Shown here: positions 1 through 14,282 of the stretch, in pieces
Layout: each line of letters opens with the position of its first letter
Numbering within the stretch: the stretch's first letter is position 1
Source of the DNA: Duganella sp. CF402
GTDB taxonomy: Bacteria; Pseudomonadota; Gammaproteobacteria; Burkholderiales; Burkholderiaceae_D
NCBI RefSeq assembly: GCF_900109645.1
Contig: NZ_FOBG01000001.1
Location: 3,834,520-3,898,519 of the forward strand
Reading direction: 5' to 3'
DNA: 64,000 nt
The notes under the pieces: model-generated
Told to the model about the DNA's origin: nothing
The model's input: only the letters and a program-made list of their open reading frames with translations
Database searches by the model: none
Program-made: the position numbers and the translations under genes

Positions 1-861
1 TACGCCCGCGAAGGCGTTGACCTGGACCGCGCGCCTGTGGACCTACGTGCGTGACGACCGGCCCGCTGGCGATGCCACGCCGCCAGCCGTCTGGTTTACC
101 TACACGCCCGACCGCAAGGGCATCCATTCACAGACGCACCTGGCCAAGTTCGAGGGCGTGCTGCAAGCCGATGCATACGCCGGCTTCAACGCCTTGTTCG
201 ACGACGGCACGGTCCGCGAAGCTGCCTGCTAGGCGCACGCCCGTCGTAAGTTCTACGATCTGCATGCGGCGCGACCGACCGCGCTGACTACCGAAGCGCT
301 ACGCCGCATTGCCGAACTGTACGTAATCGAAGCGGAGATCCGAGGCCAGCCACCAGATGAACGAAAGCAGGTTCGACAAGCTCGTGCGCGACCTTTGCTC
401 GATGATCTTGAGCGCTGGCTGCGCACCACGCTCGATACGTTGTCGCGCAAGTCCGACACGGCGGCCGAGATCCTGTACGCGCTCAAGCTGTGGCCGGCAC
501 TGCTGCGCTACTGCGACGACGGCGTCATCGAGATTGATAACTCGGCCGCCGAACGCGCCTTGCGTGGCGTCGCCATTGGGCGCCGCAACTACCTGTTTGC
601 TGGCGCCGACAGCGGCGGCGAACGCGCAGCTGCGATCTACTCGCTGATCGGCACGGCCAAGCTGAACGGAGTCGACCCCGAAGCCTGGTTGCGTCACGTG
701 CTGACGCATATCGCCGATCATCCCGTCAACCGGGTTGATGATTTCTTGCCTTGGAACTGCAACCTACCCGCAGCCCTCTGAGATAACTCCGCTTCCCAGC
801 GGGGACGCCATCATCGACAGATCGCCACAGCACTCAAGAGGGCGCTTGAGCGGAGGCTAAC
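1..861 (+). mobile_element. IS66-family insertion sequence, 3' part
   Basis: This is the right-hand part of an IS66-type element whose left end lies outside the window. It holds the tnpC-like transposase tail and an 80-base non-coding end that finishes in GCTTGAGCGGAGGCTAAC. Read inward from 861 this starts GTTAGCCTCCGC, which resembles the GTAAGC-type terminal inverted repeats known for IS66 elements. The end lies 13 bases from the stop of the following LysR gene. The exact boundary is inferred, since the left end and target duplication cannot be compared. Confidence 0.75.
2..781 (+). pseudogene. IS66 transposase (TnpC-type), 5'-cut by window and broken by a nonsense codon
   Basis: One frame runs from the window edge to the TGA at 779-781 and reads as the C-terminal half of an IS66 transposase: RLWTYVRDDRP, QADAYAGFNALF, then [10 protein letters not shown], then [20 protein letters not shown] (the conserved ENxxER-like region), ending [17 protein letters not shown]. 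The frame is interrupted once, at 230-232, by TAG where relatives have the Trp of the CWAHARRKF motif, so a single G-to-A change (TGG to TAG) is the simplest cause. Everything downstream is intact, so inactivation looks recent. Unless the stop is suppressed, the transposase is dead. Confidence 0.85.
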
Positions 862-874
862 CCTGGGAACGTAT

Positions 875-1807
875 TCACCCGAATTTATTCCAGTTTTTTT
901 TGGCCAGAAGTTCCATTGCAATGGTTTTTACTTCTGCGACAATCGGATCTCTAAGCGCACTTTTTAGCCAACCAAGCTCAATCGGGTAACGAGGCATAGA
1001 TACAGGGCAGCGTACCATTTTCAGTCCAGTCATTTGGGCAATTTGATGGGCGGCATGGGTGGGCATAGTGGCCACGGCATCGGTCCCCTTCAACAAAAAC
1101 GGCAACGCTGAAAAATGCGTGGTCGACGCCAGCACATGGCGTTGATGCCCAAGCGCGGCAAGTACCTCATCCACTACACCGATAAAGCCTCCCGAAGAGA
1201 TGAGAATGTGCTTTCGATCCAGATATCCACCCAGATCAAGAGCCTTAGATTTTGTGTTAGCAGAGCCTGGATCAATCAAGCAGGCATAACCGCCCTCTCC
1301 CAAAGCTTCGCGACTGACCAAGGGCGAGGACAGGCCGCCGGAAGTAATGGTTAAGTCTGTCTCACGCCGCATTACCATCTCAAGCGCTATCTGGCTGTGG
1401 GTCTGTCGCAACGCTAGTCTCAGTCCTGGCATCCGCTTATTAATCGCATTGAGAAGCACTTTCCCGATCGCGATTTCATAGTCATCCGACATGCCTATCA
1501 ATACTGATCGGCCCAGATATCCACTTTCGCCATGTGATCCCATGCCAAGGCTTTGGCGGAATTTATTGAGCGCGTCTGAAATAATGGGTTTGAGCTCGTG
1601 AGCGCGCGACGTCGGCGCCAGTCCTCGTCCAGTGCGGGTGAACAGCTGGTCGCCGTAAATCGTCCGTAGGCGATTCAAGGCGGCGCTGACCGCAGACTGC
1701 GTTATCGCCAGTCGCAGTCCAGCCCGACTTGCGCCCCCCTCCTCGTAGAGCGCTTCGAATATTTTCAGCACATTCAAATCAATCTTACTGATATTAATCT
1801 GCTTCAT
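875..1807 (-). CDS. LysR-family transcriptional regulator
   Basis: A 310-residue LysR-type regulator. The N-terminal winged helix-turn-helix covers about residues 8-66 (LNVLKIFEALYEEGGASRAG followed by ITQSAVSAALNRLR); the rest is the usual effector-binding domain. The frame opens further upstream, but the ATG at 1807 gives the normal LysR start (MKQINISKIDL) and leaves an 81-base divergent intergenic region before the nitrilase gene. LysR proteins typically control the divergent operon, so it probably responds to a substrate or product of the nitrilase/PLP enzymes; that is inference. It ends just beside the IS66 end. Confidence 0.85.
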   Translation of the reverse strand: MKQINISKIDLNVLKIFEALYEEGGASRAGLRLAITQSAVSAALNRLRTIYGDQLFTRTGRGLAPTSRAHELKPIISDALNKFRQSLGMGSHGESGYLGRSVLIGMSDDYEIAIGKVLLNAINKRMPGLRLALRQTHSQIALEMVMRRETDLTITSGGLSSPLVSREALGEGGYACLIDPGSANTKSKALDLGGYLDRKHILISSGGFIGVVDEVLAALGHQRHVLASTTHFSALPFLLKGTDAVATMPTHAAHQIAQMTGLKMVRCPVSMPRYPIELGWLKSALRDPIVAEVKTIAMELLAKKNWNKFG

Positions 1808-1829
1808 ATCTTTTAGTCCTGATATTGGA

Positions 1830-1858
1830 TTGATCCATTTTACGTCATTTCCTATACT
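1830..1858 (+). promoter_or_regulatory. Sigma-70-type promoter of the nitrilase operon
   Basis: TTGATC at 1830-1835 and TATACT at 1853-1858 are separated by exactly 17 bases, close to the consensus TTGACA-17-TATAAT. They sit in the LysR/nitrilase divergent intergenic region, 30 bases before the nitrilase start codon. The LysR protein likely binds overlapping sequence. Confidence 0.55.
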
Positions 1859-1888
1859 CGGAAGATCGCCATCGATTAAGGAAATATT

Positions 1889-2812
1889 GTGCAAGAAACT
1901 GTCATCGCGGCCTTGCAAATTGGTTCGCATCCTGAAGGAAAACAGCAGACATGCGAACAGATCATGTCCTTTGCGGACCAGATCGTGGAATCGAAAGCGA
2001 GTCTGGTGGTCATGCCCGAGGCTTTAGTGGGTGGATATCCCAAAGGCGAGATGTTTGGAACTCGGCTGGGCTACCGCTCAGAAGAAGGACGCCAGACCTT
2101 CGCACGCTATTATCACAACGCCATTGATGTGCCTGGGCCGGAGACGGGTGAGTTAGCGCAACTCGCACGCGTGACCAATGCGGTTCTGGTGATCGGCGTG
2201 ATCGAACGTGGCGGCAGTTCGCTGTACTGCTCAGTGCTGTTTTTTGATCCTGAGAAAGGTCTGGTGGGCAAGCACCGCAAGCTCATGCCCACCGGAACCG
2301 AGAGACTGATCTGGGGCCAGGGCGATGGATCGACCTTGACCGCGCTGGACAGCAAGGCAGGCCGTATCGGCGCCGCGATTTGCTGGGAAAATCACATGCC
2401 GCTATTTCGCACCGCCATGTATGCAAAAGGCGTGCAGCTATGGTGTGCCCCCACAGTGGATGAACGCGAGATCTGGCAGTGCTCAATGCGCCATATTGCC
2501 CATGAGGGACGATGCTTTGTCGTTAGCGCGTGCCAGGTACAGCCATCGCCCAGGGCGCTAGGCATTGAGGTTCCGGGATGGGATGCCGACCGTCCGTTGA
2601 TCAAGGGCGGCAGCACAATTATCGGTCCGATGGGCGATGTGCTGGCTGAACCGCTGCTGAACCAGACTGGTTTGGTGACCGCGACCGTGGATTTGGAGGC
2701 ACTGGTGCGTGCACGCTACGACTTTGACGTGGTGGGCCACTACGCCCGCCCAGATGTGTTTACGCTCTCAGTGGATGAACGTAGCAAAGAAACCGTGCGC
2801 TTTTTAAAGTAA
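1889..2812 (+). CDS. Nitrilase (carbon-nitrogen hydrolase)
   Basis: A 307-residue nitrilase that hydrolyses a nitrile to acid and ammonia. The Glu-Lys-Cys triad is visible: Glu in VVMPEALVGG (about residue 52), Lys in KHRKLMPTG (about 132), Cys in GAAICWENHMP (about 167). The stretch KLMPTGTERLIWGQGDGST and the context of the Cys resemble plant NIT4/NIT1-type enzymes, which act on beta-cyanoalanine or aryl nitriles; substrate assignment is inference. The start is GTG at 1889, preceded by TAAGGAA. It is the first gene of an operon with a PLP enzyme 10 bases downstream and a GlxA-type regulator. Confidence 0.88.
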   Translation: MQETVIAALQIGSHPEGKQQTCEQIMSFADQIVESKASLVVMPEALVGGYPKGEMFGTRLGYRSEEGRQTFARYYHNAIDVPGPETGELAQLARVTNAVLVIGVIERGGSSLYCSVLFFDPEKGLVGKHRKLMPTGTERLIWGQGDGSTLTALDSKAGRIGAAICWENHMPLFRTAMYAKGVQLWCAPTVDEREIWQCSMRHIAHEGRCFVVSACQVQPSPRALGIEVPGWDADRPLIKGGSTIIGPMGDVLAEPLLNQTGLVTATVDLEALVRARYDFDVVGHYARPDVFTLSVDERSKETVRFLK

Positions 2813-2822
2813 GGAGGCAAGG

Positions 2823-4019
2823 ATGTTTAAGAACGATCAGAGTGCTTACGGATTCCGGACCATGGCAATCCACGCCGGCAAATGCGCGTCGTCCGATACG
2901 GGTGCACTGGCACTACCAATTTACGCGACAACATCATTCGGATACGGTGATTTCGATAGCGGCGAGCGGCGCTTCGCTGGGGTGGAACGCGGCTTCCTCT
3001 ATAGCAGGTTCTCCAATCCTACTGTGCAGGTTTTTGAACAAAAAATGGCGCTTCTCGAGGGGGGAGAAACCGCACTGGCCGCTTCAAGTGGCATGGCGGC
3101 CATCTGTGCTGCTCTGTTCGGCTTGCTGTCGGCGGGGGACGAGTTGATTTTCGTGGGCACGCTATACGGTGGCACGCTGGGCGTGATGCAAACACTTTTG
3201 CCACGAATGGGAGTAAACGTCCTGGGCGTCAAGGACGTCGGGGAGCTGGGCAACGCGATCACCGCAAAAACCAAGTTGGTCTACGTTGAAACGCCATCCA
3301 ATCCCACCTTGGAAATCATCGATCTGGGCGCAGTCGCTGCGCTGGCCAGAGAACACGCCGTGATTAGCATTGCCGACAACACCTTTGCCACGCCCTACCT
3401 GACCAGACCGATCGATCTCGGAATTGATATCGTCGTGCACTCGGCCACCAAGTACATAGGCGGACATGGCGATGCCACCGGAGGCGTGGTGATCGGCAGC
3501 AAGCAGCACATCGAACTGATACGCACCGCAGGGGTCAAGCAGTTTGGAGGATGCATGAGCCCACAAGACGCGTTCCTGTTTGTACGCGGACTCAAGACCT
3601 TGCCTTTGCGGATGGAAGCCGTATGCGATTCCGCTTTAGCGATCGCACAGGCGTTACATCGGCATCCTCTGGTTGAACAGGTGTTTTACCCCGGGCTGGC
3701 AGCACATGCCGGGCACGATATCGCCGCCAGGCAAATGAAGAAATTCGGCGGCATTTTGGCGTTCACGCTGCGCGGCGGCAAAGCTAACGCGCGCCGTTTC
3801 CTCAACCAGTTGATGGTGATTACCCAAGCCGTTTCGGTCGGCGACGTCGACTCGCTCGCTTGTCATCCTGCCTCCACCACCCATAGCGCAGTGCCAGCCG
3901 AGGTCCGGCTGCAACAAGGCGTCACCGATCAGTTGATACGTCTGAGCGTCGGTATCGAGGACTTATCGGATCTGCTGACGGATATCTATGCGGCGCTCGC
4001 GGCGCTCACTCTTGAATAA
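2823..4019 (+). CDS. Cys/Met-metabolism PLP-dependent enzyme (gamma-lyase/synthase or sulfhydrylase type)
   Basis: A 398-residue fold-type I PLP enzyme of the trans-sulfuration family. Visible features are the AIHAGK N-terminal motif, YSRFSNPTV, the PLP-stacking ASSGMAAI region, the DNTFATPYL aspartate motif and the Schiff-base lysine in SATKYIGGHGD (about residue 216). The residue after YG in LYGGTLGVM is Gly where methionine gamma-lyases carry the diagnostic Cys, so a classical methionine gamma-lyase is less likely than a synthase or sulfhydrylase. It starts 10 bases after the nitrilase stop with a strong AAGGAGG. Its partner nitrilase suggests the enzyme makes or consumes a cyano-amino acid; that is inference. 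Confidence 0.85.
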   Translation: MFKNDQSAYGFRTMAIHAGKCASSDTGALALPIYATTSFGYGDFDSGERRFAGVERGFLYSRFSNPTVQVFEQKMALLEGGETALAASSGMAAICAALFGLLSAGDELIFVGTLYGGTLGVMQTLLPRMGVNVLGVKDVGELGNAITAKTKLVYVETPSNPTLEIIDLGAVAALAREHAVISIADNTFATPYLTRPIDLGIDIVVHSATKYIGGHGDATGGVVIGSKQHIELIRTAGVKQFGGCMSPQDAFLFVRGLKTLPLRMEAVCDSALAIAQALHRHPLVEQVFYPGLAAHAGHDIAARQMKKFGGILAFTLRGGKANARRFLNQLMVITQAVSVGDVDSLACHPASTTHSAVPAEVRLQQGVTDQLIRLSVGIEDLSDLLTDIYAALAALTLE

Positions 4020-4026
4020 GAATAAT

Positions 4027-5019
4027 ATGCGACACGTCGTCTTTTTGATCATTTCCCCCATCGTCGAACTTGATTTGTTTGGGCCACTCAATGTGTTTGC
4101 ACTAGCCGGTGGGGATGGTCCTAAGCCGCCGGACCTCGACAAACGTAAATACAAAACCACCATCGTCACCACGGGTGAGGACTTGAACATCATTGGCGAA
4201 TGCGGCGTCAATATGCTAGCTCATAAACGCTATCGCGACCTCGACGAGCCGATCGATACACTGCTGGTGGTCGGCGGTGGTGGTGCCTACACCTTTGACG
4301 GCAACGCTGAGGTTTGCGCATGGCTACAGGTCCGCGCCAACCACATCCGCCGCATCGGTGCAATCTGTACTGGCGCCTTTGTGCTAGCGGCGGCTGGCTT
4401 GCTCGACGGGCGGCGAGCCGCTACCCACTGGGGCTGTACAGATGAACTCGGGGTGCGCTATCCCAAAGTGAAGGTCGATCCGGAGCCCGTATGGATCAAA
4501 GATGGCAAGCTTTATACGTCCGCCGGCATCACGGCCGGTATCGATCTGGCGCTCGGCCTGGTGGAGGAAGATATGGGCAGCAAGGCCGCACTGGCGATTG
4601 CGCGTTTGCTGGTAGTATTTCTGAAACGCCCCGGAGGCCAACGGCAGTTCAGCATCGCGTTATCGGCGCAAGCCCCCAAGACCCAGACTTTCGCCGATTT
4701 GGTCAGCTGGATCGCCGAGCATCTGGCGGATTCACTGTCGGTGGAAGAACTGGCCGACCGCATGGCTATGAGCCCGCGCAACTTCACCCGCGTGTTCACC
4801 GAAGAGCTTGGCGTGACGCCGGCACGCTATGTGCGGCAAGTCCGGATCGAGGCAGCCCGCATCATGCTGGAGCAAACGCGCAAAGGCATGGATGAAATTG
4901 CTGAGCTGTGTGGTTTCGGCAGCGATGAGCTAATGCGTCGTGCATTTATCAGCGATATCGGCGTGCCGCCGAGCCAGTATCGCGCCACGTTCGAGAGTGG
5001 TCCGCTTGAAAAACGGTAG
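4027..5019 (+). CDS. GlxA-family transcriptional regulator (DJ-1/PfpI domain plus AraC HTH)
   Basis: A 330-residue regulator with an N-terminal DJ-1/PfpI glutamine-amidotransferase-like domain (about 1-190; VVFLIISPIVELDLFGP, and the nucleophile-elbow region IGAICTGAFVLAAAGLL) and a C-terminal AraC HTH (about 225-325; SVEELADRMAMSPRNFTRVF, ending GVPPSQYR). Such proteins sense amino-acid or quaternary-amine metabolites. The longer open frame begins inside the PLP gene; the ATG at 4027 gives the family start and follows the PLP stop by 7 bases. It is the third gene of the operon, giving the locus two regulators of different families. Confidence 0.83.
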   Translation: MRHVVFLIISPIVELDLFGPLNVFALAGGDGPKPPDLDKRKYKTTIVTTGEDLNIIGECGVNMLAHKRYRDLDEPIDTLLVVGGGGAYTFDGNAEVCAWLQVRANHIRRIGAICTGAFVLAAAGLLDGRRAATHWGCTDELGVRYPKVKVDPEPVWIKDGKLYTSAGITAGIDLALGLVEEDMGSKAALAIARLLVVFLKRPGGQRQFSIALSAQAPKTQTFADLVSWIAEHLADSLSVEELADRMAMSPRNFTRVFTEELGVTPARYVRQVRIEAARIMLEQTRKGMDEIAELCGFGSDELMRRAFISDIGVPPSQYRATFESGPLEKR

Positions 5020-5241
5020 TCCCCCAACGGCCACTGGCAGCTATCGTGGGTTGCCTGTCGCAATTAGTGGGAGTGGCAAATGAATCGTTTGAAATTGGCA
5101 GTTATGTAGGGCTGCCTGTCCTTCGAATTGGAAGTTTAAAGTGAGAAAGTAGATCCATTGAATCAGCCAAGGCACAACAGCAACGGCGGATTCAAGGGAA
5201 GAACCTTTCGCAGCTAACTGAACTTACACAAGGAGCAGGAC

Positions 5242-5988
5242 ATGAACATCACCAAAGAAATCAAGCAGGTCGCCATCGTCACCGGTTCGTCGCGCGGCAT
5301 CGGCGCGGCGGTTGCAGAACGTCTGGCAAATGACGGCTTTGCCGTGGTCATCAACTATGCAGGCAGCGCCACCGAGGCTGAAGAACTGGCCGCCAAGATT
5401 GAGAAAAATGGCGGCCACGCATTGCCACTGCAAGCGGATGTCAGCGATCCATCGGCTGTGGCCGCCATGTTCGCCAAAACCGAAGAGGTATTCGGCGGTG
5501 TTGATGTGCTGGTCAACAATGCCGGCATCATGGCCTTGTCGAGTATTGCAGAAACCGATGATGCCAGCGTCGATCGTCAAATCGATATCAATTTCAAGGG
5601 CAGTTTCAATACCATGCGCGAAGCTGCGCGTCGCCTGCGCCAGGGTGGCCGCATCGTCAACTTCTCGTCCAGTGTGGTCGGCATGCTGCAACCGACATAC
5701 GGCGTCTACGCCGGCACCAAGGCCGCCATCGAAGCTTTGACCAGCATTCTGGCCAAGGAACTGCGCGGCCGCAACATCACCGTCAACGCGATCGCCCCCG
5801 GCCCTACCGCGACCGCGCTGTTCCTCAACGGCAAACCCCAGGAAGTGATCGACCGCCTGTCGAAGCTGGCGCCACTGGAGCGTCTGGGCCAGCCGGCCGA
5901 CATCGCAGCCGCCGTGGCATTCCTGGTGGACCCTGACGGCGCCTGGATCAACGGCCAAGTGCTGCGCGCCAACGGCGGCATCATCTGA
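5242..5988 (+). CDS. SDR-family NAD(P)-dependent oxidoreductase
   Basis: A 248-residue classical short-chain dehydrogenase. It has the TGSSRGIG dinucleotide motif near residue 14, NNAG in LVNNAGIM, the catalytic Ser in NFSSSVVG, and YAGTK holding the Tyr-Lys pair (about 154-158). The end, WINGQVLRANGGII, is typical of 3-oxoacyl-ACP reductase or glucose-dehydrogenase relatives. The start has AAGGAGCAGGAC upstream. It is first in a same-strand run to 8651 with gaps of 36-63 bases that may be one transcript. No substrate can be named. Confidence 0.87.
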   Translation: MNITKEIKQVAIVTGSSRGIGAAVAERLANDGFAVVINYAGSATEAEELAAKIEKNGGHALPLQADVSDPSAVAAMFAKTEEVFGGVDVLVNNAGIMALSSIAETDDASVDRQIDINFKGSFNTMREAARRLRQGGRIVNFSSSVVGMLQPTYGVYAGTKAAIEALTSILAKELRGRNITVNAIAPGPTATALFLNGKPQEVIDRLSKLAPLERLGQPADIAAAVAFLVDPDGAWINGQVLRANGGII

Positions 5989-6031
5989 TTTTAACGCTTC
6001 ACCTCTCTCTATTCCCACGAAAGGAAATGCC

Positions 6032-6931
6032 ATGAAACAAGTTATCGTCATCACCGGTGCCTCCAGCGGTTTTGGTGCGCTCGCCGCACGCGCCTTGGCC
6101 CACGCTGGTCATACCGTCTACGCCAGCATGCGAGAAACTACCGGCCGCAATGCGCCACAAGTAACCGAGGTAGCACGTTACGCCGATGAACATCGCGTCG
6201 ATCTGCGCACCGTAGAACTGGACGTAGCCTCCAGCGACTCGGTCGATGCTGGCATCGCCAAGATCATCGCCGACAACGGCCGCCTGGATGTGGTAATCCA
6301 CAACGCTGGTCATATGTCTTTCGGTCCGGCTGAGGCGTTCACGCCGGAACAATTTGCACAGCTGTACGACATCAATGTGCTGAGCACTCAGCGGGTCAAC
6401 CGTGCCGCTTTACCGCAACTGCGCCAGCAGGGCCGTGGCCTGGTGCTGTGGGTATCGTCGAGCAGCACGCGTGGCGGCACACCGCCGTATCTGTCGCCGT
6501 ACTTTGCCGCGAAGGCAGCGATGGATTCGCTGGCGGTATCCTACGCCTCGGAACTGACGCGCTGGGGTATTGAGACTTCGATCGTGGTGCCGGGCGCCTT
6601 CACCAAAGGCACTAATCACTTCGCGCACTCTGGCTCGCCCGCAGACAAAGCACGCGCAGCGGAATATGACGATGGTCCTTATCAAGGCGTGCCAGACATG
6701 GCACTCAAAGGATTGGCTGCACTTGAACCCGCCGATGCCGATGTGGCCGACGTGGCCAAGGCCATCGTGGAGATTGTGGGAATGCCATTTGGTAGCCGTC
6801 CGTTCCGCCGCCATATCGACCCATCGCAGGATGGCGCCGAAGTGGTCAACGGCGTGGCAGACCGGGTCCGCACCGAGATGTATCGCCGGATCGGCCTGGA
6901 AGACCTGCTGACGCCTCGTCAACGCGGCTAA
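6032..6931 (+). CDS. SDR-family oxidoreductase
   Basis: A 299-residue short-chain dehydrogenase of the longer retinol-dehydrogenase-like type. TGASSGFG near residue 9, then HNAGHMSFGP, the catalytic Ser in WVSSSSTRG and the YFAAK Tyr-Lys pair (about 163-167) are present. It is only distantly like the preceding SDR, so this is not a recent duplication. The SD sequence GAAAGGAAA precedes the ATG. The two SDRs plus the LuxR-type regulator downstream suggest a small stress or carbonyl-detoxification module, which is inference. Confidence 0.86.
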   Translation: MKQVIVITGASSGFGALAARALAHAGHTVYASMRETTGRNAPQVTEVARYADEHRVDLRTVELDVASSDSVDAGIAKIIADNGRLDVVIHNAGHMSFGPAEAFTPEQFAQLYDINVLSTQRVNRAALPQLRQQGRGLVLWVSSSSTRGGTPPYLSPYFAAKAAMDSLAVSYASELTRWGIETSIVVPGAFTKGTNHFAHSGSPADKARAAEYDDGPYQGVPDMALKGLAALEPADADVADVAKAIVEIVGMPFGSRPFRRHIDPSQDGAEVVNGVADRVRTEMYRRIGLEDLLTPRQRG

Positions 6932-6994
6932 ACGCCTTCATCCGACCAGCCGCACGTTCCACGACGTGCGGCAAATGCAACCGAAAGGAAAGAT

Positions 6995-7579
6995 ATGCCA
7001 GTTTCTCATCCAGTCCGCGTTCAGGTGCTGCACGCCGATCCTCTGATGTCCGCCGGCCTGTTAAGCGTATTGCGTCACCGCGATGAAGTGCGCGTTGTTG
7101 ATGAGAACGCAGATGTTATCGTGGCCGACTACCAGCGCGCGCTAAGTACCATACGCCTTTCATTAGCGGGTGCACCGCGCATTGTGATTGTTACCCAGTT
7201 TGACAAGGAATGGCAGGTACGTTCGGCGCTGGCCGACGGCATCTGCGGCTACCTTTTGCAAAGCTGCACGGCGGATGAATTAATCGATGGGCTGTGTCTG
7301 GCTCGCCAGAACATGGTTTGCTTAAGCGCGACATTGCGCGGCCTGGTGGAACAGGCGCCAGTTCACGACTGCTTGACTGGCCGCGAGCGCGACGTGCTTC
7401 AACTTCTCGCGACCGGACGCTGCAACAAGGCAATCGCGCGCGATCTAGGTATCGGCGTTGGCACTGTCAAAACACATCTCAAAGGCGTGATGACTAAGCT
7501 AGGCGCCACCGCTCGTACACATGCGGTAGTGCTGGCTACGCAACGTGGCCTGGTCGATCAGAGGGCCGCATCGCATTAG
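6995..7579 (+). CDS. LuxR/NarL-type response regulator, degenerate receiver
   Basis: A 194-residue two-domain regulator. Residues about 7-115 look like a shortened CheY-type receiver: the acidic pair is reduced to HADP, and IVADYQR offers one Asp at the expected end of strand 3. The C-terminal LuxR HTH is canonical (LTGRERDVLQLLATG, then KAIARDLGIGVGTVKTHLKG). No histidine kinase is nearby. With the receiver weakened, phosphorylation-independent control is possible. The SD sequence AAAGGAA lies 5 bases from the ATG. Confidence 0.84.
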   Translation: MPVSHPVRVQVLHADPLMSAGLLSVLRHRDEVRVVDENADVIVADYQRALSTIRLSLAGAPRIVIVTQFDKEWQVRSALADGICGYLLQSCTADELIDGLCLARQNMVCLSATLRGLVEQAPVHDCLTGRERDVLQLLATGRCNKAIARDLGIGVGTVKTHLKGVMTKLGATARTHAVVLATQRGLVDQRAASH

Positions 7580-7630
7580 TTTGAAAATACCGTAAAAATT
7601 TTGAACGCTTACCATCTACAGGAGCATGAC

Positions 7631-8131
7631 ATGGACAGTACCTTAAAAATCTCTTCCCAGCCATCTGTGGTTAAGACGCTGGTTTATCCCCTGATCGCCG
7701 CAGCTGCTGCAGCTACAGCCTCAGGCTCCAGCGCTGCGTTGGCATTGCCGGTATGGGCGATGTTTATCGGGTGGGTAGCATTCTTTACCCGAGGCCCAAG
7801 TGTCAAGGACGGTGTGTGGAACGCCTTATGCCTCCTGGTCGGAATCGCGTTGGGCATGTTGGCCGCTCTGACTATCGGCGCGCTGGCACCGCTCATAGGT
7901 GCGATGGCATTGCCGGCTGTAGTCTTCGTCGTCGCTGTACTGGTGCTCTCTCTACGTTTGACCCGGCGCATGAACAACGTGCTGTGCTACTTCCTTGGGC
8001 TGATTACCTTCTTCGCATCACGCCTGCCGCCGAACGCGACCACATTTTCTGAGCTGAGTGGCGCCGTAGTGATTGGATTGATCGCCGGCGGCGTGACGTT
8101 TGTAGGTCAACGTCGCCTTATGAAAATCTAA
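7631..8131 (+). CDS. DUF1097-family inner-membrane protein
   Basis: A 166-residue hydrophobic protein with about five membrane segments, resembling the DUF1097 (YcdZ-like) family of unknown function. The open frame begins 10 codons earlier, but AGGAG at 7620-7624 is placed for the ATG at 7631. Segments run from about LVYPLIAAAAAATASG through the small-residue-rich middle to the last helix, GAVVIGLIAGGVTFVG. It follows the LuxR gene by about 50 bases. No transport substrate can be proposed. Confidence 0.8.
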   Translation: MDSTLKISSQPSVVKTLVYPLIAAAAAATASGSSAALALPVWAMFIGWVAFFTRGPSVKDGVWNALCLLVGIALGMLAALTIGALAPLIGAMALPAVVFVVAVLVLSLRLTRRMNNVLCYFLGLITFFASRLPPNATTFSELSGAVVIGLIAGGVTFVGQRRLMKI

Positions 8132-8168
8132 GGTTGCATACAACAATCTCTAGCCCAGGAGCCGCATC

Positions 8169-8651
8169 ATGAAATTTGCCCGCTATCTGCTCTCCATTAC
8201 GCTTGCTTCTTTCTTGAGCGGCTGCACAGCACAGGAGCCACAAATGAAACAGTCTGTCACCTATTTGCATTTGCTAAAAAAGACTCCTTTCTTCACCCGA
8301 CTCGATAAGAGCCAACTCAAGTGGGTGATCGCTCACTCGACTGAGTGGGAGGCACCGGCAGGAATGGAGGTGAGCAATCGTTTGGATGCGAATGGGCACC
8401 TTTGGATTCTATTAGATGGTGGCTGGCAGGTAGAGCAAGGTGGCCGGATCTATAAGTCTGGTCATGCAGACGCGGCTAAATGGTATGGGGGGGAATATGC
8501 GGAGTTGTTGCCAAGTGACAGTCGTTTAGTAACAAATCAACATAGCTATGTGATGCAGATTGCGCGTACCGACTTTAATGAAATGCTCAAGCTTGGTTTT
8601 GATTTCAGCGAGCATTTACAAGAGGGAAAACTGTTCTACATGTCGCATTAA
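8169..8651 (+). CDS. Lipoprotein with a cyclic-nucleotide-binding-like fold
   Basis: A 160-residue protein with a lipoprotein signal (hydrophobic segment, then LSGC with Cys19 as lipidation site). The mature part opens LHLLKKTPFFTRLDKSQL followed by EAPAGMEVSNR, which resembles the start of CRP-type cyclic-nucleotide-binding domains (pattern L..tplF..L...l....a.......aG). A beta-rich stretch follows (WILLDGGWQVEQGGRIY) but the usual phosphate-binding cassette (GE.ALL..) is not evident. Domain assignment rests on pattern only. An extracytoplasmic version of this fold would be unusual. The gene stops 7 bases before an IS66-like end. Confidence 0.72.
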   Translation: MKFARYLLSITLASFLSGCTAQEPQMKQSVTYLHLLKKTPFFTRLDKSQLKWVIAHSTEWEAPAGMEVSNRLDANGHLWILLDGGWQVEQGGRIYKSGHADAAKWYGGEYAELLPSDSRLVTNQHSYVMQIARTDFNEMLKLGFDFSEHLQEGKLFYMSH

Positions 8652-8658
8652 TTCCCAT

Positions 8659-8744
8659 CTGAGATAACGCCGCTTCCCAGCGGGGTGATGCCATCATCGA
8701 TTAAATTGCTGTTCCATTCAAGACGTCACTGAGCAGACGCTTAC
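8659..8744 (+). mobile_element. Solo IS66-type right end (no transposase)
   Basis: This stretch repeats the tail of the IS66 copy at 779-820: CTGAGATAAC(G)CCGCTTCCCAGC and GCCATCATCGA recur with few changes. It ends GAGCAGACGCTTAC, whose complement GTAAGCGTCTGCTC is a typical IS66 terminal inverted repeat. No transposase precedes it; the lipoprotein gene stops at 8651. It is therefore a decapitated element left by deletion or recombination. The rest to 8849 shows nothing recognisable. Confidence 0.65.
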
Positions 8745-8849
8745 ATATGCATTGAGGTGCAAGGGGTATGACAACCAAAAATTCTAGGGCCGATTAGAGC
8801 TCACTCCAGTAGGACCATGAGGGCATTGTGTATGTATGCACTCTGGTGC

Positions 8850-9326
8850 TTACTCAGGATCGAACTGCAGTATGCGTCCGGTGCGCCGTTGCAGCAGCTT
8901 GTCAGAGTCAGCCCTGCAATCTGCCGCGCGCACCCAGTATTCCTCACCGGGGAACCTGAACCAGATAAATCGCCATGCGTTGCGTCCCTTGGCATGACGG
9001 TTGGCGAATAGCGATGGGGTCAGGCTACTTCCATCATCGGACAGGATGCGATCACCTATCACCTTGGAGAATTCCGTGGTGTGGTGATAACTCGTTCTGA
9101 GGTTGGTGCCTTCGGGGAGGAAGACATTCTTCCATTGATAACCCCGTAGTCCCGACCCGTTCCTGAGCACGGCAAGCCGTTCCTTCTCAATTGTCAGCCA
9201 GCGCTCAAGCAGGTCCGCGATGAATGCCTCCAGTTTGACACCGGGCCGGGTGTCCATCAGGTGAAACTCCAAGTCCATTAATTCGCTCAAGGGCAGATCT
9301 ATCGAGCGCTTCGCCACGAATCCCAT
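8850..9326 (-). CDS. Hypothetical protein, possible ribbon-helix-helix N-terminus
   Basis: A 158-residue protein without a firm family. Residues about 4-50 fit a ribbon-helix-helix layout: a short strand (KRSIDLP), a helix (LSELMDLEFHLMD), a turn with Gly, and a second helix (KLEAFIADLLERWLTIEKE). The C-terminal part (about 65-145: YQWKNVFLPEGTNLR, then LTPSLFANRHAKGRNAWRF, FPGEEYWV) recalls small RAMA-like DNA-associated domains. Both assignments are by eye. The ATG at 9326 is preceded by GGAGG at 9335-9339. Its upstream region holds a TTAGAC repeat array and a GGTCTAA/TTAGACC palindrome, fitting a self-regulating DNA-binding protein. Confidence 0.6.
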   Translation of the reverse strand: MGFVAKRSIDLPLSELMDLEFHLMDTRPGVKLEAFIADLLERWLTIEKERLAVLRNGSGLRGYQWKNVFLPEGTNLRTSYHHTTEFSKVIGDRILSDDGSSLTPSLFANRHAKGRNAWRFIWFRFPGEEYWVRAADCRADSDKLLQRRTGRILQFDPE

Positions 9327-9344
9327 GATGTGATCCTCCAAACC

Positions 9345-9531
9345 GGTCTAAAAGTTAGACCACTGCACTGAAATTTGGTTCGATTTAGACTTCCGCTTGA
9401 AAAAAGTAGAGCGGTTTAGACTTTGAGGCCGATTTCCTGGACTGTTTTAGACTCGCGCTTGGCATTCTTAGACTCAAAGAGTCCGAGTTTGCCTCGTTTA
9501 GACCGATTTAGACGAAGAACGGATTTTAGAT
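9345..9531. repeat. Helically phased array of TTAGAC repeats
   Basis: Seven exact TTAGAC direct repeats start at 9355, 9385, 9416, 9447, 9468, 9498 and 9508, with a variant TTAGAT at 9526. Intervals are 30, 31, 31, 21, 30 and 10 bases, all near multiples of one helical turn, so the sites face the same side of DNA. Most are preceded by T (TTTAGAC). The first copy forms a palindrome with an inverted copy (GGTCTAA-AAG-TTAGACC, 9345-9361). A second palindrome, GACTC-AAA-GAGTC, is at 9471-9483. The array fills the divergent region between the hypothetical gene at 8850-9326 and uppP; no protein-coding gene is apparent in it. Confidence 0.8.
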
Positions 9532-9659
9532 ACCCAGCCCCTCCCCTCATTACAGTTGAGCGAGATTCATAAAAGATTAACTTTGCCGTGGTAAGCTTCG
9601 ACCCGGTAGCCTCCCTGCCGTCCCGTATATTTCCCAACTGCACGTAAATTACTGAATTC

Positions 9660-10499
9660 ATGGATATTGTTCTCGCGCTGAAGGCCCTGATCATGGGCCT
9701 GGTTGAAGGTTTGACCGAGTTCCTGCCTATCTCCTCCACCGGCCACCTGATTCTCACCGAGCACCTGCTGAGCTTCCAGGGCATGGAAGAAAAAATCAAT
9801 GTCTTCGAGATCGTGATCCAGGCCGGGGCCATCTTCGCCGTCTGCTGGGAATACCGCGCCCGTATCGCCAAAGTCACCACCGGGCTGACCACCGACCGCA
9901 AGCAGCAACGCTTCGCGCTGAATATCGCCATCGCCTTCCTGCCGCTGGCCATCCTCGGCCTGGTGCTGGGCAATTTCCTGAAAGAGCACCTGTTCAAGCC
10001 GGTCCCGGTGGCCCTGGCGCTGATCGTCGGCGGCTTCATCATCCTGATCGTCGAGCGCCACGTGGCCGCCAATCCGGTCTCGGTGCGCGTGCACTCGGTC
10101 GATGACATGACGCCGCTGGATGCCTTAAAAATGGGCATCGCCCAGGCCTTCGCGCTAATTCCAGGCACCAGCCGCTCGGGCTCCACCATCATCGGCGGCA
10201 TGATGTTCGGCTTTTCGCGCCAGGCCGCGACCGAGTTTTCCTTCCTGCTGGGCATTCCCACCCTGCTGGTCGCCTCCGCCTACTCGCTGTTCAAGGCGCG
10301 CCACCTGCTGGAAGCGTCGGACCTGCCGATGTTCACCATCGGCACCGTGTCGGCGTTTATCTCGGCATTCTTCTGCGTGCGCTGGTTGCTGCGCTATGTC
10401 GCCTCCCATACTTTCACGGTTTTTGCGTGGTATCGCATCGCGTTTGGCCTGTTGGTGCTGGTGACCGGTTACACTGGCGTTATTCTCTGGGCCGACTAA
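9660..10499 (+). CDS. uppP: Undecaprenyl-diphosphatase
   Basis: A 279-residue polytopic membrane enzyme that dephosphorylates undecaprenyl pyrophosphate to recycle the lipid carrier for peptidoglycan and other envelope polymers. The two family motifs are present: [14 protein letters not shown] (about 16-29) with the Glu-rich first motif, and [10 protein letters not shown] (about 170) as the second. Length matches the BacA/UppP family. No clear SD sequence precedes the ATG. It carries the high GC of the core chromosome and marks the end of the accessory left arm. Confidence 0.95.
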
Positions 10500-10527
10500 C
10501 CATTTTTTGTAAAGCAGTAGCAGTAAC

Positions 10528-12351
10528 ATGAATCATCAGGACAACAACGAACGCGCCCTCCACTTGCTGCAAACCGTGTTCGGCTATCCAGCCTTCCGCG
10601 GCCAGCAAGGGGAGATTGTCAGCCACGTGGCTGGAGGCGGCGATGCGCTGGTCCTGATGCCCACCGGCGGCGGCAAGTCGCTGTGCTACCAGATCCCGGC
10701 CCTGCTGCGCGACGGCGTCGGCGTGGTGGTGTCGCCGCTGATCGCGCTGATGCAGGATCAGGTCGATGCGCTGGAAGAAGTCGGCGTGCGCGCTGCCTTC
10801 CTGAACTCCACCCAGTCGTACGAAGAAGCGAGCCGCATCGAACGGCTGGTGCGCACCGGCGAGATCGACCTGGTCTACGTCGCGCCAGAGCGCTTGATGA
10901 CGGATCGCTGCCTGAACCTGTTCCAGAGTTCGAACATCTCGCTGTTTGCGATCGACGAGGCGCACTGCGTGTCGCAGTGGGGGCATGACTTCCGGCCCGA
11001 GTACATCAAGCTGTCGGTGCTGCACGAGCAGTTCCCCAACGTGCCGCGCATCGCGCTGACAGCGACCGCCGATCCGCAAACGCGCGCCGAAATCGTGCAC
11101 CGCCTGCAGCTGGAGGATGCGGCGCAATTCGTGTCCTCGTTCGACCGCCCGAACATCCGCTACCAGATCGTCGAGAAAGCCAATGGCCGCAAGCAGCTGC
11201 TGGACTTCATCACCACCGAGCATGGCGGCGATTGCGGCATCGTCTACTGCCTGTCGCGCAAGAAGGTAGAGGAGACGGCGGAGTTCCTGAACGAGAACGG
11301 CGTGCGCGCGCTGGCCTACCACGCCGGCATGGAGCACACCGTGCGTGCTGCGAATCAGGCCAAGTTCCTGCGCGAAGAAAACATCGTCATGTGCGCCACC
11401 ATTGCCTTCGGCATGGGCATCGACAAGCCGAACGTGCGCTTCGTCTGCCACCTGGATCTGCCGAAAAGTATCGAAGGCTACTACCAGGAGACCGGACGCG
11501 CAGGCCGCGACGGCGAACCTTCCAGCGCGTGGATGGCCTACGGCTTGCAGGACGTGGTGCTGCAGCGCCGGATGATCGACGAATCCGAGGCTGACGAAAC
11601 CTTCAAGCGCGTGCTGGGCAACAAGCTCGATGCGATGCTGGGTCTTTGCGAAACCCTGAGCTGCCGGCGCGTGCGCCTGCTCGACTACTTCGGCGAACAG
11701 GCCGGCCCTTGCGGCAATTGCGATACCTGCCTGATTCCACCGGTGTCCTTCGACGGCACGGTGCCGGTGCAGAAACTGCTGTCGACCGTGTACCGGGTCG
11801 ACCAGCGCTTCGCGGCCGGCCACGTGATCGACGTGCTGCGCGGGCAGGAGACGGACCGGATTAAAACCTGGCACCACGATTCGCTGTCGGTGTTCGGCAT
11901 CGGCGCCGACCGCAGCGAGCAGGAATGGCGCGCCATCCTGCGCCAGGTGATCGCGCTTGGCCTGCTGACGGTCGATCACGAACAATTCAGCTCATTGAAG
12001 CTGACCGACGCCGCGCGGCCGGTGCTCAAAGGTGGGCAGAAAGTGCAGCTGCGCCAGTACCAGAAACCGGTCAAGCAGAAACCGAGCCGCGCGGCCAAGG
12101 GTTACGTGGAAAGCGACCTGTCGGCGCAAGAGCAAAAAATCTTCGACCGCCTGCGCTCGTGGCGCATGGGTACGGCGCGCGAACACAACGTCGCCGCCTA
12201 CATCATCTTCAACGACGCCACCCTGCGCGAAATCGCCAAAGCCCGCCCGACGGCTTTGGACGACCTGCGCGGCATCTCCGGCGTCGGCGAGAAAAAGCTC
12301 ACGTCCTACGGCGACGAAATCGTCAGCCTGATCAGCGAGATGGAAGACTAG
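10528..12351 (+). CDS. recQ: ATP-dependent DNA helicase RecQ
   Basis: A 607-residue 3'-5' DNA helicase acting in recombination and replication-fork repair. Walker A is [12 protein letters not shown] (about 46-57), the DEAH box is [19 protein letters not shown], and the ETGRAGRDG arginine-finger motif follows in helicase domain 2. The RecQ-C-terminal zinc site is visible as CRR..., CGNC and C (about 380-405), and a C-terminal HRDC domain spans about 525-600. Full length for bacterial RecQ. It follows uppP by 28 bases and may be co-transcribed. Its 3' end overlaps the convergent AraC gene by 4 bases. Confidence 0.96.
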
Positions 12352-13274
12352 GCCAGCACGATGCTGCGGTAGCGGCTGGGTGGGGCGCCGAGGGCGGCGC
12401 GGAAGCGGTGACTGAAGTGGCTCAGGTCCGCGTAGCCGCAGGCGTCGGCGATTTGTTGCAGCGGTTGATCCGTGGTTTTCAGCAGCACGCGCGCGTGCTC
12501 GATGCGGCGCGCGGCGATCCATGCGGAGGGCGGCATGCCGAACGAGACTTTGAACATGCGCACCAGATGGTATTCGGACAGGCACGCAAGCTGCGCCAGC
12601 ATGCCCAGTGTGATGTCCTGCCCAAGATGCGCTTCGATGTAGTCGGCCAAGCGGCGCCGCACCACCGGCGCCAGACCGCCGCGCACGCGCGCCTGGTGTA
12701 GCGGCGCCGATTGCGCCAGCAACAGGTGGCTCAGTGTTTCGTGCGTGACTTCGTTGGCGCGCAGTTGGGCGTCCGCGCCGTCCCACGGCATGTCGGCCAG
12801 CGCCGCGCACAGGTGGCCGATGCGTTCGTGCTCGAAGTAGGTACGGTCGGCCAGCGTCAGCTCGCGCGGCTCGCGGTCCAGTTCCACCACCGCGCGCCGC
12901 GTGAAGTGCTCGGGCAGGAAGTAGATGTGCAGGAAGTGCATTTCGCCGCGCACGGTCCATGACGATTCATGCCAGTCCGGCAAGGTGCACAGCCGCTTCG
13001 GCGCACCATACAGGCCGGGGAGTTCGGTGCGCTCGGTGCGATGGCCGCCGTCCAGATAGTAGGACAGTGTGTGGTGGCCCGGCTGGTTGTAGCTGGTTTC
13101 CGCCACCGGCGTGTCGCGCCGCCAGATCGCCAGCGCCAATTCGTCACCCAGCCACGCAAAGCGCTCCAGCTGCGCATCGGTCTCGGACATGGTCTTGAAG
13201 ACGGAATGCGACAATTGCCCGTCCGGCAAGGCGGACAGCAAGGTGGCAGGCAGGTTGTTGGCGCGGGAGGACAT
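12348..13274 (-). CDS. AraC-family transcriptional regulator
   Basis: A 308-residue regulator with an N-terminal sensing region and a C-terminal double HTH (about 205-305: [40 protein letters not shown], then [20 protein letters not shown] and GAPPSRYR). The sensing half has no assigned ligand. It reads convergently to recQ, and the divergent gene at 13386 encodes an EamA-type transporter 111 bases away, making that transporter a candidate target. Confidence 0.87.
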
Positions 13275-13385
13275 GGATAAAGTCTAGCACGGTGCCCCGC
13301 CACGTGCCGGACGCGGGACCGTCCTCAAGCCGATATGCGCAATTTCAGACAAGTCGCCGCGTCGCGCGGACGGCATGCTGGCGGC

Positions 13386-14282
13386 ATGAATACTTTCCTC
13401 TACCTTCTCACGGTGCTCATCTGGGGCACCACATGGATCGCCATCACGTTCCAACTGGGCGTGGTGCCGGCCCCGGTGTCGATCGCCTATCGCTTCTGGA
13501 TCGCCGCCGCCGTGCTGCTGGCCGGCCTGCTGCTCACGCGCCGCCAATGGTGGCCGCCGCGCCAGGCCTGGCCTTATCTGTTCGCGCAGGGGATTGCGCT
13601 GTTTTGCCTGAACTTCCTGTGCTTCTACTACGCCAGCCAGTGGGTCACCAGCGGCCTCGAAGCGGTGGTATTTTCCACCGCGCCGCTGTGGAACGCGATC
13701 AATGGCCGTATCTTCCTCGGCCGACCGATCAAGCCGCAGGTGATGGCCGGGGCGCTGCTCGGCCTCGCCGGCATCGTGCTGCTGTTCGCGCCGCAGATGG
13801 CCGGCCACTGGCATGACAGCCACACCCTGCTCGGCCTCGCGCTCACGCTCGGCGGTACGCTGTGCTTCTCGTGCGGGAATCTGCTGTCCAGCCGCATGCA
13901 GTCGCTCGGCCTGACGCCGTGGCTGACCAACACCTGGGCCATGCTGATCGGCTCCACCACGCTGGGCGTGGCGGCGCTGGCGCTGGGCATGCCGTTCACG
14001 CTGGACGAGTCGCCGCGCTATCTCGGCGCGCTGCTGTATCTGGCCATTCCCGGTTCAGTGGTCGGCTTTACCGCCTACCTGATGCTGGTCGGCCGCATCG
14101 GCCCTGACCGCGCGGCCTATTCCACGGTATTATTCCCCATCGTCGCGCTAACTATTTCGACTATTTACGAAGGCTACCATTGGACGCCGCTGGCCCTGTG
14201 CGGGCTGGCGCTGGTTCTGGCGGGGAATCTGCTGGCATTCTTACCGCCGTCCCTACGCGCCAAACTGATGGGAGCCGCATAG
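13386..14282 (+). CDS. EamA/DMT-superfamily transporter
   Basis: A 298-residue inner-membrane protein with about ten helices in two EamA repeats, as in drug/metabolite exporters of the RhaT/YdcZ kind. The first repeat begins FLYLLTVLIWGTTWIAI, the typical WGxxW opening; the second starts near LGLALTLGGTLCFSCGNLL. The frame opens 17 codons earlier, but the ATG at 13386 yields the family N-terminus directly at the first helix. It is divergent from the AraC-type gene. Exported substrate unknown. Confidence 0.86.
   Translation: MNTFLYLLTVLIWGTTWIAITFQLGVVPAPVSIAYRFWIAAAVLLAGLLLTRRQWWPPRQAWPYLFAQGIALFCLNFLCFYYASQWVTSGLEAVVFSTAPLWNAINGRIFLGRPIKPQVMAGALLGLAGIVLLFAPQMAGHWHDSHTLLGLALTLGGTLCFSCGNLLSSRMQSLGLTPWLTNTWAMLIGSTTLGVAALALGMPFTLDESPRYLGALLYLAIPGSVVGFTAYLMLVGRIGPDRAAYSTVLFPIVALTISTIYEGYHWTPLALCGLALVLAGNLLAFLPPSLRAKLMGAA

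Follow-up and report, generated by a model that had tools for sequence, protein, structure and literature searches.

The array of TTAGAC hexamers lying ahead of a short gene in the 64,000-nucleotide stretch of Duganella sp. CF402 DNA analysed here (the window; bare coordinates below are positions in it) is best read as one end of a non-autonomous mobile cassette with the order array, gene and mirror array, the product of which would bind the arrays and probably regulate its own gene. We give this reading a probability of about 60%. The cassettes have two ends and fixed spacing, they lie at differing genomic positions with empty orthologous sites in relatives, gene and arrays occur together, and both are conserved between the window copy and its ortholog. 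The parts are of known kinds and their arrangement is new, no description of it having been found in the literature searched.

The upstream array (9346..9513, plus strand) consists of seven exact TTAGAC copies, starting at 9355, 9385, 9416, 9447, 9468, 9498 and 9508 (spacing 30, 31, 31, 21, 30 and 10), together with an inverted copy, GTCTAA, at 9346-9351. All seven starts agree with those given in an earlier reading of this DNA made from its letters (the sequence-only reading). Since TTAGAC is not enriched over the window as a whole (11 copies against 8.1 expected), it is the clustering that counts: none of 5000 dinucleotide shuffles of 9345-9531 reached seven copies (maximum two), in keeping with the earlier view that the number is beyond chance. 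The helical phasing of about 10.2 bp claimed there is likewise borne out, with a best period of 10.25 bp for the seven starts (vector length 0.977; p = 5e-5 against random positions).

The innermost copy is part of the palindrome GGTCTAA-aag-TTAGACC (9345..9361, unstranded), found beside the gene where it had been reported and directly upstream of a Shine-Dalgarno-like GGAGG. Its TTAGAC half keeps a constant distance to the start codon in most close homologues, and the other half reads GTCCAA in many copies, as judged by eye from the aligned upstream ends. A palindrome fixed before the start codon fits putative self-regulation by the encoded protein. An RNA hairpin was also considered for this palindrome and was dropped because GTCCAA breaks a pair; no consensus promoter was found. 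At the far side of the array, the tip box GATACCC (9529..9535, plus strand; GGGTATC when read inward) marks the outer limit of conservation when 24 upstream ends, from 23 loci and the window, are aligned without gaps; conservation there begins at GGGTATnCC, approximately 184 bp from the inner site.

The gene itself (8850..9326, minus strand) is confirmed as an ATG open reading frame encoding 158 residues. The product is uncharacterised and probably binds DNA; Pfam returns nothing for it at E ≤ 1, and its N-terminus, searched alone, is likewise without a match. Of the two models built, the first used 19 sequences and reached a mean pLDDT of 72.1, the second 37 sequences and 80.6. The earlier proposal of a ribbon-helix-helix (RHH) N-terminus, for which structure prediction had been suggested as the check, is upheld in part: residues 11-40 form two predicted helices (pLDDT about 90) and residues 4-48 align with NikR (Z 4.2, below Z 8; rmsd 3.1, 43 residues aligned), but neither monomer model assigns a strand ahead of the first helix and no Pfam profile matches. 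The N-terminus also resembles SegB weakly (Z 3.0, rmsd 4.6), and residues 8 and 10, the would-be base contacts of an RHH strand, vary by eye while the site is constant. An RHH-like N-terminus is plausible on these models. For residues 64-145, the RAMA domain of MPND gives Z 7.4 (rmsd 2.4-2.7, 74-76 residues aligned), CcrM Z 5.7 (rmsd 3.4, 76 aligned) and SAND domains Z 5.2, all below Z 8; rows of the RAMA type head the structure list, and the same leading families come up with the first model. The RAMA and NikR rows come solely from VIA re-alignment, Foldseek alone giving no match at E ≤ 0.001 for either model. The models suggest, without proving, a 158-residue protein with an RHH N-terminus and a RAMA/SAND-like C-terminus. 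The invariant residues comprise one serine and no acidic residue, histidine, tyrosine or cysteine, and hence give no pointer to a nuclease or recombinase.

The RAMA domains of MPND and CcrM, which provide the best structural rows for residues 64-145, contact the DNA backbone according to PMC9963953; the difference from the proteins described there is that the RAMA-like part is here joined to an RHH-like N-terminus, and that the scores stay below Z 8. No paper on an RHH protein with a RAMA domain was found in a literature search made mostly without subscription papers. A wider family shares the conserved C-terminal domain (GYQWK..FLP.GT.LR; L002-L006 and L167-L183), with five further matches in the window genome and members in 52 of 294 family genomes in all; it is mostly without arrays and has no Pfam match where scanned.

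Beyond the left edge of the window, about 1.75-1.88 kb before its first base and 11.4 kb away from the window array, lies a second array that runs in the opposite direction as a mirror image of the first (G000:C2:3832643-3832771). The sequence-only reading had covered one half of this structure, and mentioned neither the cassette nor the RAMA/SAND-like C-terminus. A search of the whole genome for three TTAGAC at short distances returns these two arrays only, and the same pattern read backward gives no match in this genome. Counted from the outermost site, the sites of an array form a fixed block with offsets 10, 30 or 40, 61, 71, 92, 123 and 153, and many ends are closed by an inverted copy at offset 162, some by one at 131-132. 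In the relatives, the upstream sites lie typically at -189, -179, -128, -97, -66 and -36 from the start codon with TTAGAC at -27, and the mirror array follows the stop codon, also at fixed offsets; in several copies the stop codon TAA even lies within the inner GTCTAA. The two arrays of the relatives flank the gene directly, giving a cassette of about 0.8-0.9 kb.

The pairing of gene and array, which the sequence-only reading had proposed to look for in relatives, recurs among the close loci (≥49% identity, named genomes, n = 35, of which L139, L144, L154 and L166 end near a contig edge): 24 carry at least four exact sites, 7 carry one to three and 4 carry none. The homologues thus do not consistently lack TTAGAC arrays, only these 4 of 35 being without an exact site. 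Of the four, L159 has 14 CTAGAC instead and the other three are copies from P. flava (G210), in which three of four gene copies are without an exact site and the fourth has one. Among the more distant loci (n = 16), exact sites near the gene number four at L180 and one each at L168, L175 and L178, the other 12 having none. In the Rugamonas and P. rivuli copies (flanks of L139, L141, L143, L140 and L163), further repeats are shared past the usual tip and hint at elements that are longer or nested.

The wide separation of the two arrays in the window genome is due to an interruption. In Duganella rivi FT55W (G254), the downstream array comes directly after the gene, and the homology between the window and this genome ends at the end of the gene (window 8854). 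In the window genome, some 10.5 kb lie between the gene and the second array (window 1-8745; L083 about 3820-14265), carrying IS66 transposase genes, the large one in fragments, along with genes for a carbon-nitrogen hydrolase, a Cys/Met-metabolism PLP enzyme, a DJ-1/AraC-type regulator and two short-chain dehydrogenases. A string at 8722..8744 (minus strand) we take to be the IS66-type end of the insertion between the 3′ end of the gene and the second array, the transposase pieces lying in the insert; no left counterpart was found elsewhere in L083 at ≤6 mismatches. The IS66 debris noticed earlier beside the gene is present, but as a separate insertion inside the cassette, which accounts for its appearance in the window.

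A sequence-only profile of 23 ends was used at a cut-off of E ≤ 0.001. It matches 48 of 74 genus genomes, a lower bound like the other counts made with it, since upstream ends and one of the two types of right end supplied most of its rows. The 148 listed matches, grouped when less than 1000 bp apart, make 104 groups (67 single and 37 multi-match), a rule by which the pair of the window genome is scored as two single matches. Inversion is seen in 36 of the 37 multi-match groups, 21 of them spanning 780-900 bp and 15 being shorter (132-744 bp), and some of the shorter ones are gene-deleted forms. Throughout the 74 genus genomes, end matches pair at 132-892 bp, the exception being the 11.4 kb of the window genome. 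Of the 294 genomes in the family sample, 21 have ends: all 16 with a close gene (E ≤ 1e-30), six of which supplied profile rows (G254, G075, G283, G155, G011 and G188), versus 5 of the 278 without, where G289 with its truncated gene is counted.

The cassettes lie in different genomic contexts, the neighbouring ORFs, picked as the longest ones, differing among most of the 13 loci compared. The window copy is flanked by uppP (9660..10499, plus strand; Pfam BacA 5.4e-84), a host gene outside the cassette, and on the other side by a TonB-receptor gene and the terminator of that gene. The array was rightly placed upstream of uppP. No cassette is present at this site in G306, G166, G318 and G248, while D. 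rivi FT55W has a gene-only cassette there. A second site is occupied in G319 and empty in G316 and G294, and at the site of G322 the arrays are retained in G316 with most of the gene region gone. Broken copies include an in-frame stop (L101), an internal deletion (L084) and a frame change (L162). No transposase was recognised on board or on a larger relative, judging from the spacing of ends in the 74 genus genomes and from part of the 21 family genomes with ends. In Pseudoduganella violacea (L165:3699-5753), tniB (Pfam 8.4e-69) and tniQ (4.4e-26) adjoin the right end of the cassette, next to a short ORF interpreted as the last part of tniA, although Pfam does not match it. A mobiliser of the Tn402/Tn7 type was considered and dropped, because such genes were seen at L165 only and none were noticed in the ORF starts of 12 other loci.

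Candidate ends of another kind are seen at some copies. The edges of L162 carry GGTTCTCCACGGATT on one side and TGTTCTTCGCGGATT on the other, and an element of P. flava has this type of repeat precisely at either end. A 1315-bp insertion sequence in G303 (L238:1501-2815; ends GGTTCTTCACGGATT) is bounded by the same repeats; its transposase matches the ISL3 DDE family (1.6e-67), and it has a clear 8-bp target duplication, TTTTTTTA, at a terminator-like T-run. Several cassettes adjoin terminator-like sequences by eye, as this insertion sequence does. Its end sequence is found in 27 of 74 genus genomes, a few of the matches being coding by eye. When 45 array edges were scored, the eight best matches fell 60-76 bp outside the array (p ≤ 0.052 each, uncorrected). 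Clear ISL3-like edges were obtained for L162 (both) and L134 (one), the other best matches being weak and most of the remainder background; the matches at the L162 left end and at one end of a P. flava element are partly circular because the TIR matrix included both. No ISL3-type inverted ends were found at the two edges of the window copy, and no clear target duplication at L162 or at the window site. ISL3 mobilisation is plausible for some copies and unproven for that of the window.

The window copy and that of D. rivi FT55W, which occupy the same site, were compared for signs of selection. The gene has dN 0.090 and dS 0.856 (dN/dS 0.106), and the median dN/dS is 0.21 over 19 pairs with pS < 0.62, most of which are not established as orthologous. 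In the upstream array, 2 of 48 site bases have changed versus 49 of 167 spacer bases, and in the downstream array 0 of 42 versus 43 of 169; taken over both arrays, the changes are 2/90 in sites versus 92/336 in spacers (combined Fisher 7e-9), with a hexamer counted as a site when intact in either sequence. A column test that does without this mask, ranking conservation in the other 22 rows, gives 11 differences in 72 columns of the highest class versus 20 in 45 of the lowest (p = 7.6e-4). From these substitution patterns, gene and sites look protected by selection in the one orthologous pair tested.

The sites can also change together. In Duganella fentianensis (G271), the two arrays contain 14 CTAGAC and no TTAGAC, and at the same place P. 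danionis (G242) has 11 TTAGAC and 5 CTAGAC, the two genomes being 91% identical over the 4 kb spanning the cassette. That all 14 hexamers of both D. fentianensis arrays read CTAGAC points to one trans-acting binder, which would best explain the switch, and local gene conversion could produce the same concerted change. Genome-wide, triple-TTAGAC groups number 0 in D. fentianensis and 4 in P. danionis; triple-CTAGAC groups number 12 and 10 there, 4 in Duganella qianjiadongensis (G260) and 0 in G000, G254, G319 and G309, counts that are weak alone because the backward control gives 3-13 per genome. These three species also have compact arrays of 10-bp units (GTCTAGAACG type) without the gene (L214-L226, L314-L320). 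Among the places compared, three are common to all three genomes and one to D. qianjiadongensis and D. fentianensis. Such solo arrays often lie just after stop codons, and 7 of 10 single arrays inspected in D. qianjiadongensis fall between convergent ORF ends on a crude longest-ORF pick. They could be relics or working sites.

In the mechanism that we propose for the cassette, dimers of a protein combining an RHH part with a RAMA/SAND-like second domain would line up on the sites along the same helical face, covering some 160 bp at either end. Occupation of the palindrome next to the start codon would repress the protein's own gene, and the two coated ends could pair with the gene looped out. 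A comparable design is seen in the IS607 family, where several dimers occupy multiple subterminal repeats and a filament on one end captures the other, as described in PMC6188088; the binder there is the serine transposase itself, whereas the cassette protein has no recognised catalytic domain. In mobile copies, the complex may assist or regulate movement by a transposase acting in trans, plausibly of the ISL3 family, and in fixed copies such as that of the window it would still be retained by selection.

Mobile insertion cassettes are transposase-less units that carry a gene, and the present elements resemble these and other miniature elements in lacking a transposase, in carrying a gene and in the resident-IS-like ends of L162 and P. 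flava. It is doubtful, on the other hand, that they are nothing but selfish ISL3-type miniature elements, with gene and arrays as passengers and with conservation reflecting recent movement rather than function. The ISL3-like ends at L162 (both), L134 (one) and the P. flava elements, the ISL3-family insertion sequence with identical ends, the gene-deleted short forms and the broken copies would all suit such an origin. However, most edges, including those of the window copy, are without an ISL3-type end, the gene here goes with site arrays of its own on either side, and the window and D. rivi copies share one site with a dN/dS of 0.106 and conserved hexamers. Selection at a fixed locus would fit a domesticated chromosomal site-binding protein that spread once by mobility and now organises or insulates DNA through its arrays. 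MatP, an RHH-type protein with dispersed chromosomal matS sites, would be such a protein in spirit, and the solo 10-bp-unit arrays, which two or three species of a single clade share at orthologous positions, resemble its sites. Yet the cassette has tandem phased arrays and a mobile gene, a macrodomain function is unsupported, ends are patchy (48 of 74 genus genomes), the window genome has two triple-TTAGAC arrays only and the solo arrays may be relics, so that we regard domestication as unlikely.

About as probable as the purely selfish element, and held tentatively, is a mobile centromere-like nucleoprotein system of a new class, in which an RHH-RAMA protein would coat and pair the helically phased mirror arrays, spread as one gene, change its sites in concert and, in one clade, organise or insulate the chromosome through conserved solo arrays seeded there. 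A true locus for partition (ParR/parC-like) or replication (iteron-like), the option offered by the earlier reading, is by comparison highly improbable. ParR is typically an RHH protein on phased direct repeats, that of pB171 binding 10-bp units with a solenoid-like coating (PMC9426499), and SegB is among the weak structural matches (Z 3.0). Unlike that system, the cassette has no NTPase partner and has two mirror arrays, a dispersed chromosomal location and an extra RAMA/SAND-like domain. A full cassette, at 780-900 bp, can hold no more than a single gene, Pfam detects no NTPase gene beside the putative adaptor gene among ten ORFs of the window locus and no Rep family among the ten neighbouring ORFs scanned, no match was obtained in plasmid or phage collections at E ≤ 1e-5, and the window copy lies on a 4.0-Mb contig. 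The non-autonomous cassette with an array-binding product is the reading that we prefer.

If binding is confirmed, the cassette would be a compact natural example of a DNA-binding protein that moves and switches together with more than a dozen of its sites, and the TTAGAC-CTAGAC difference between P. danionis and D. fentianensis would offer a direct test of whether a regulator co-evolves with an entire array. Such a cassette, transposase-less and with its own end-binding protein under selection, would further connect mobile elements with chromosomal site systems.
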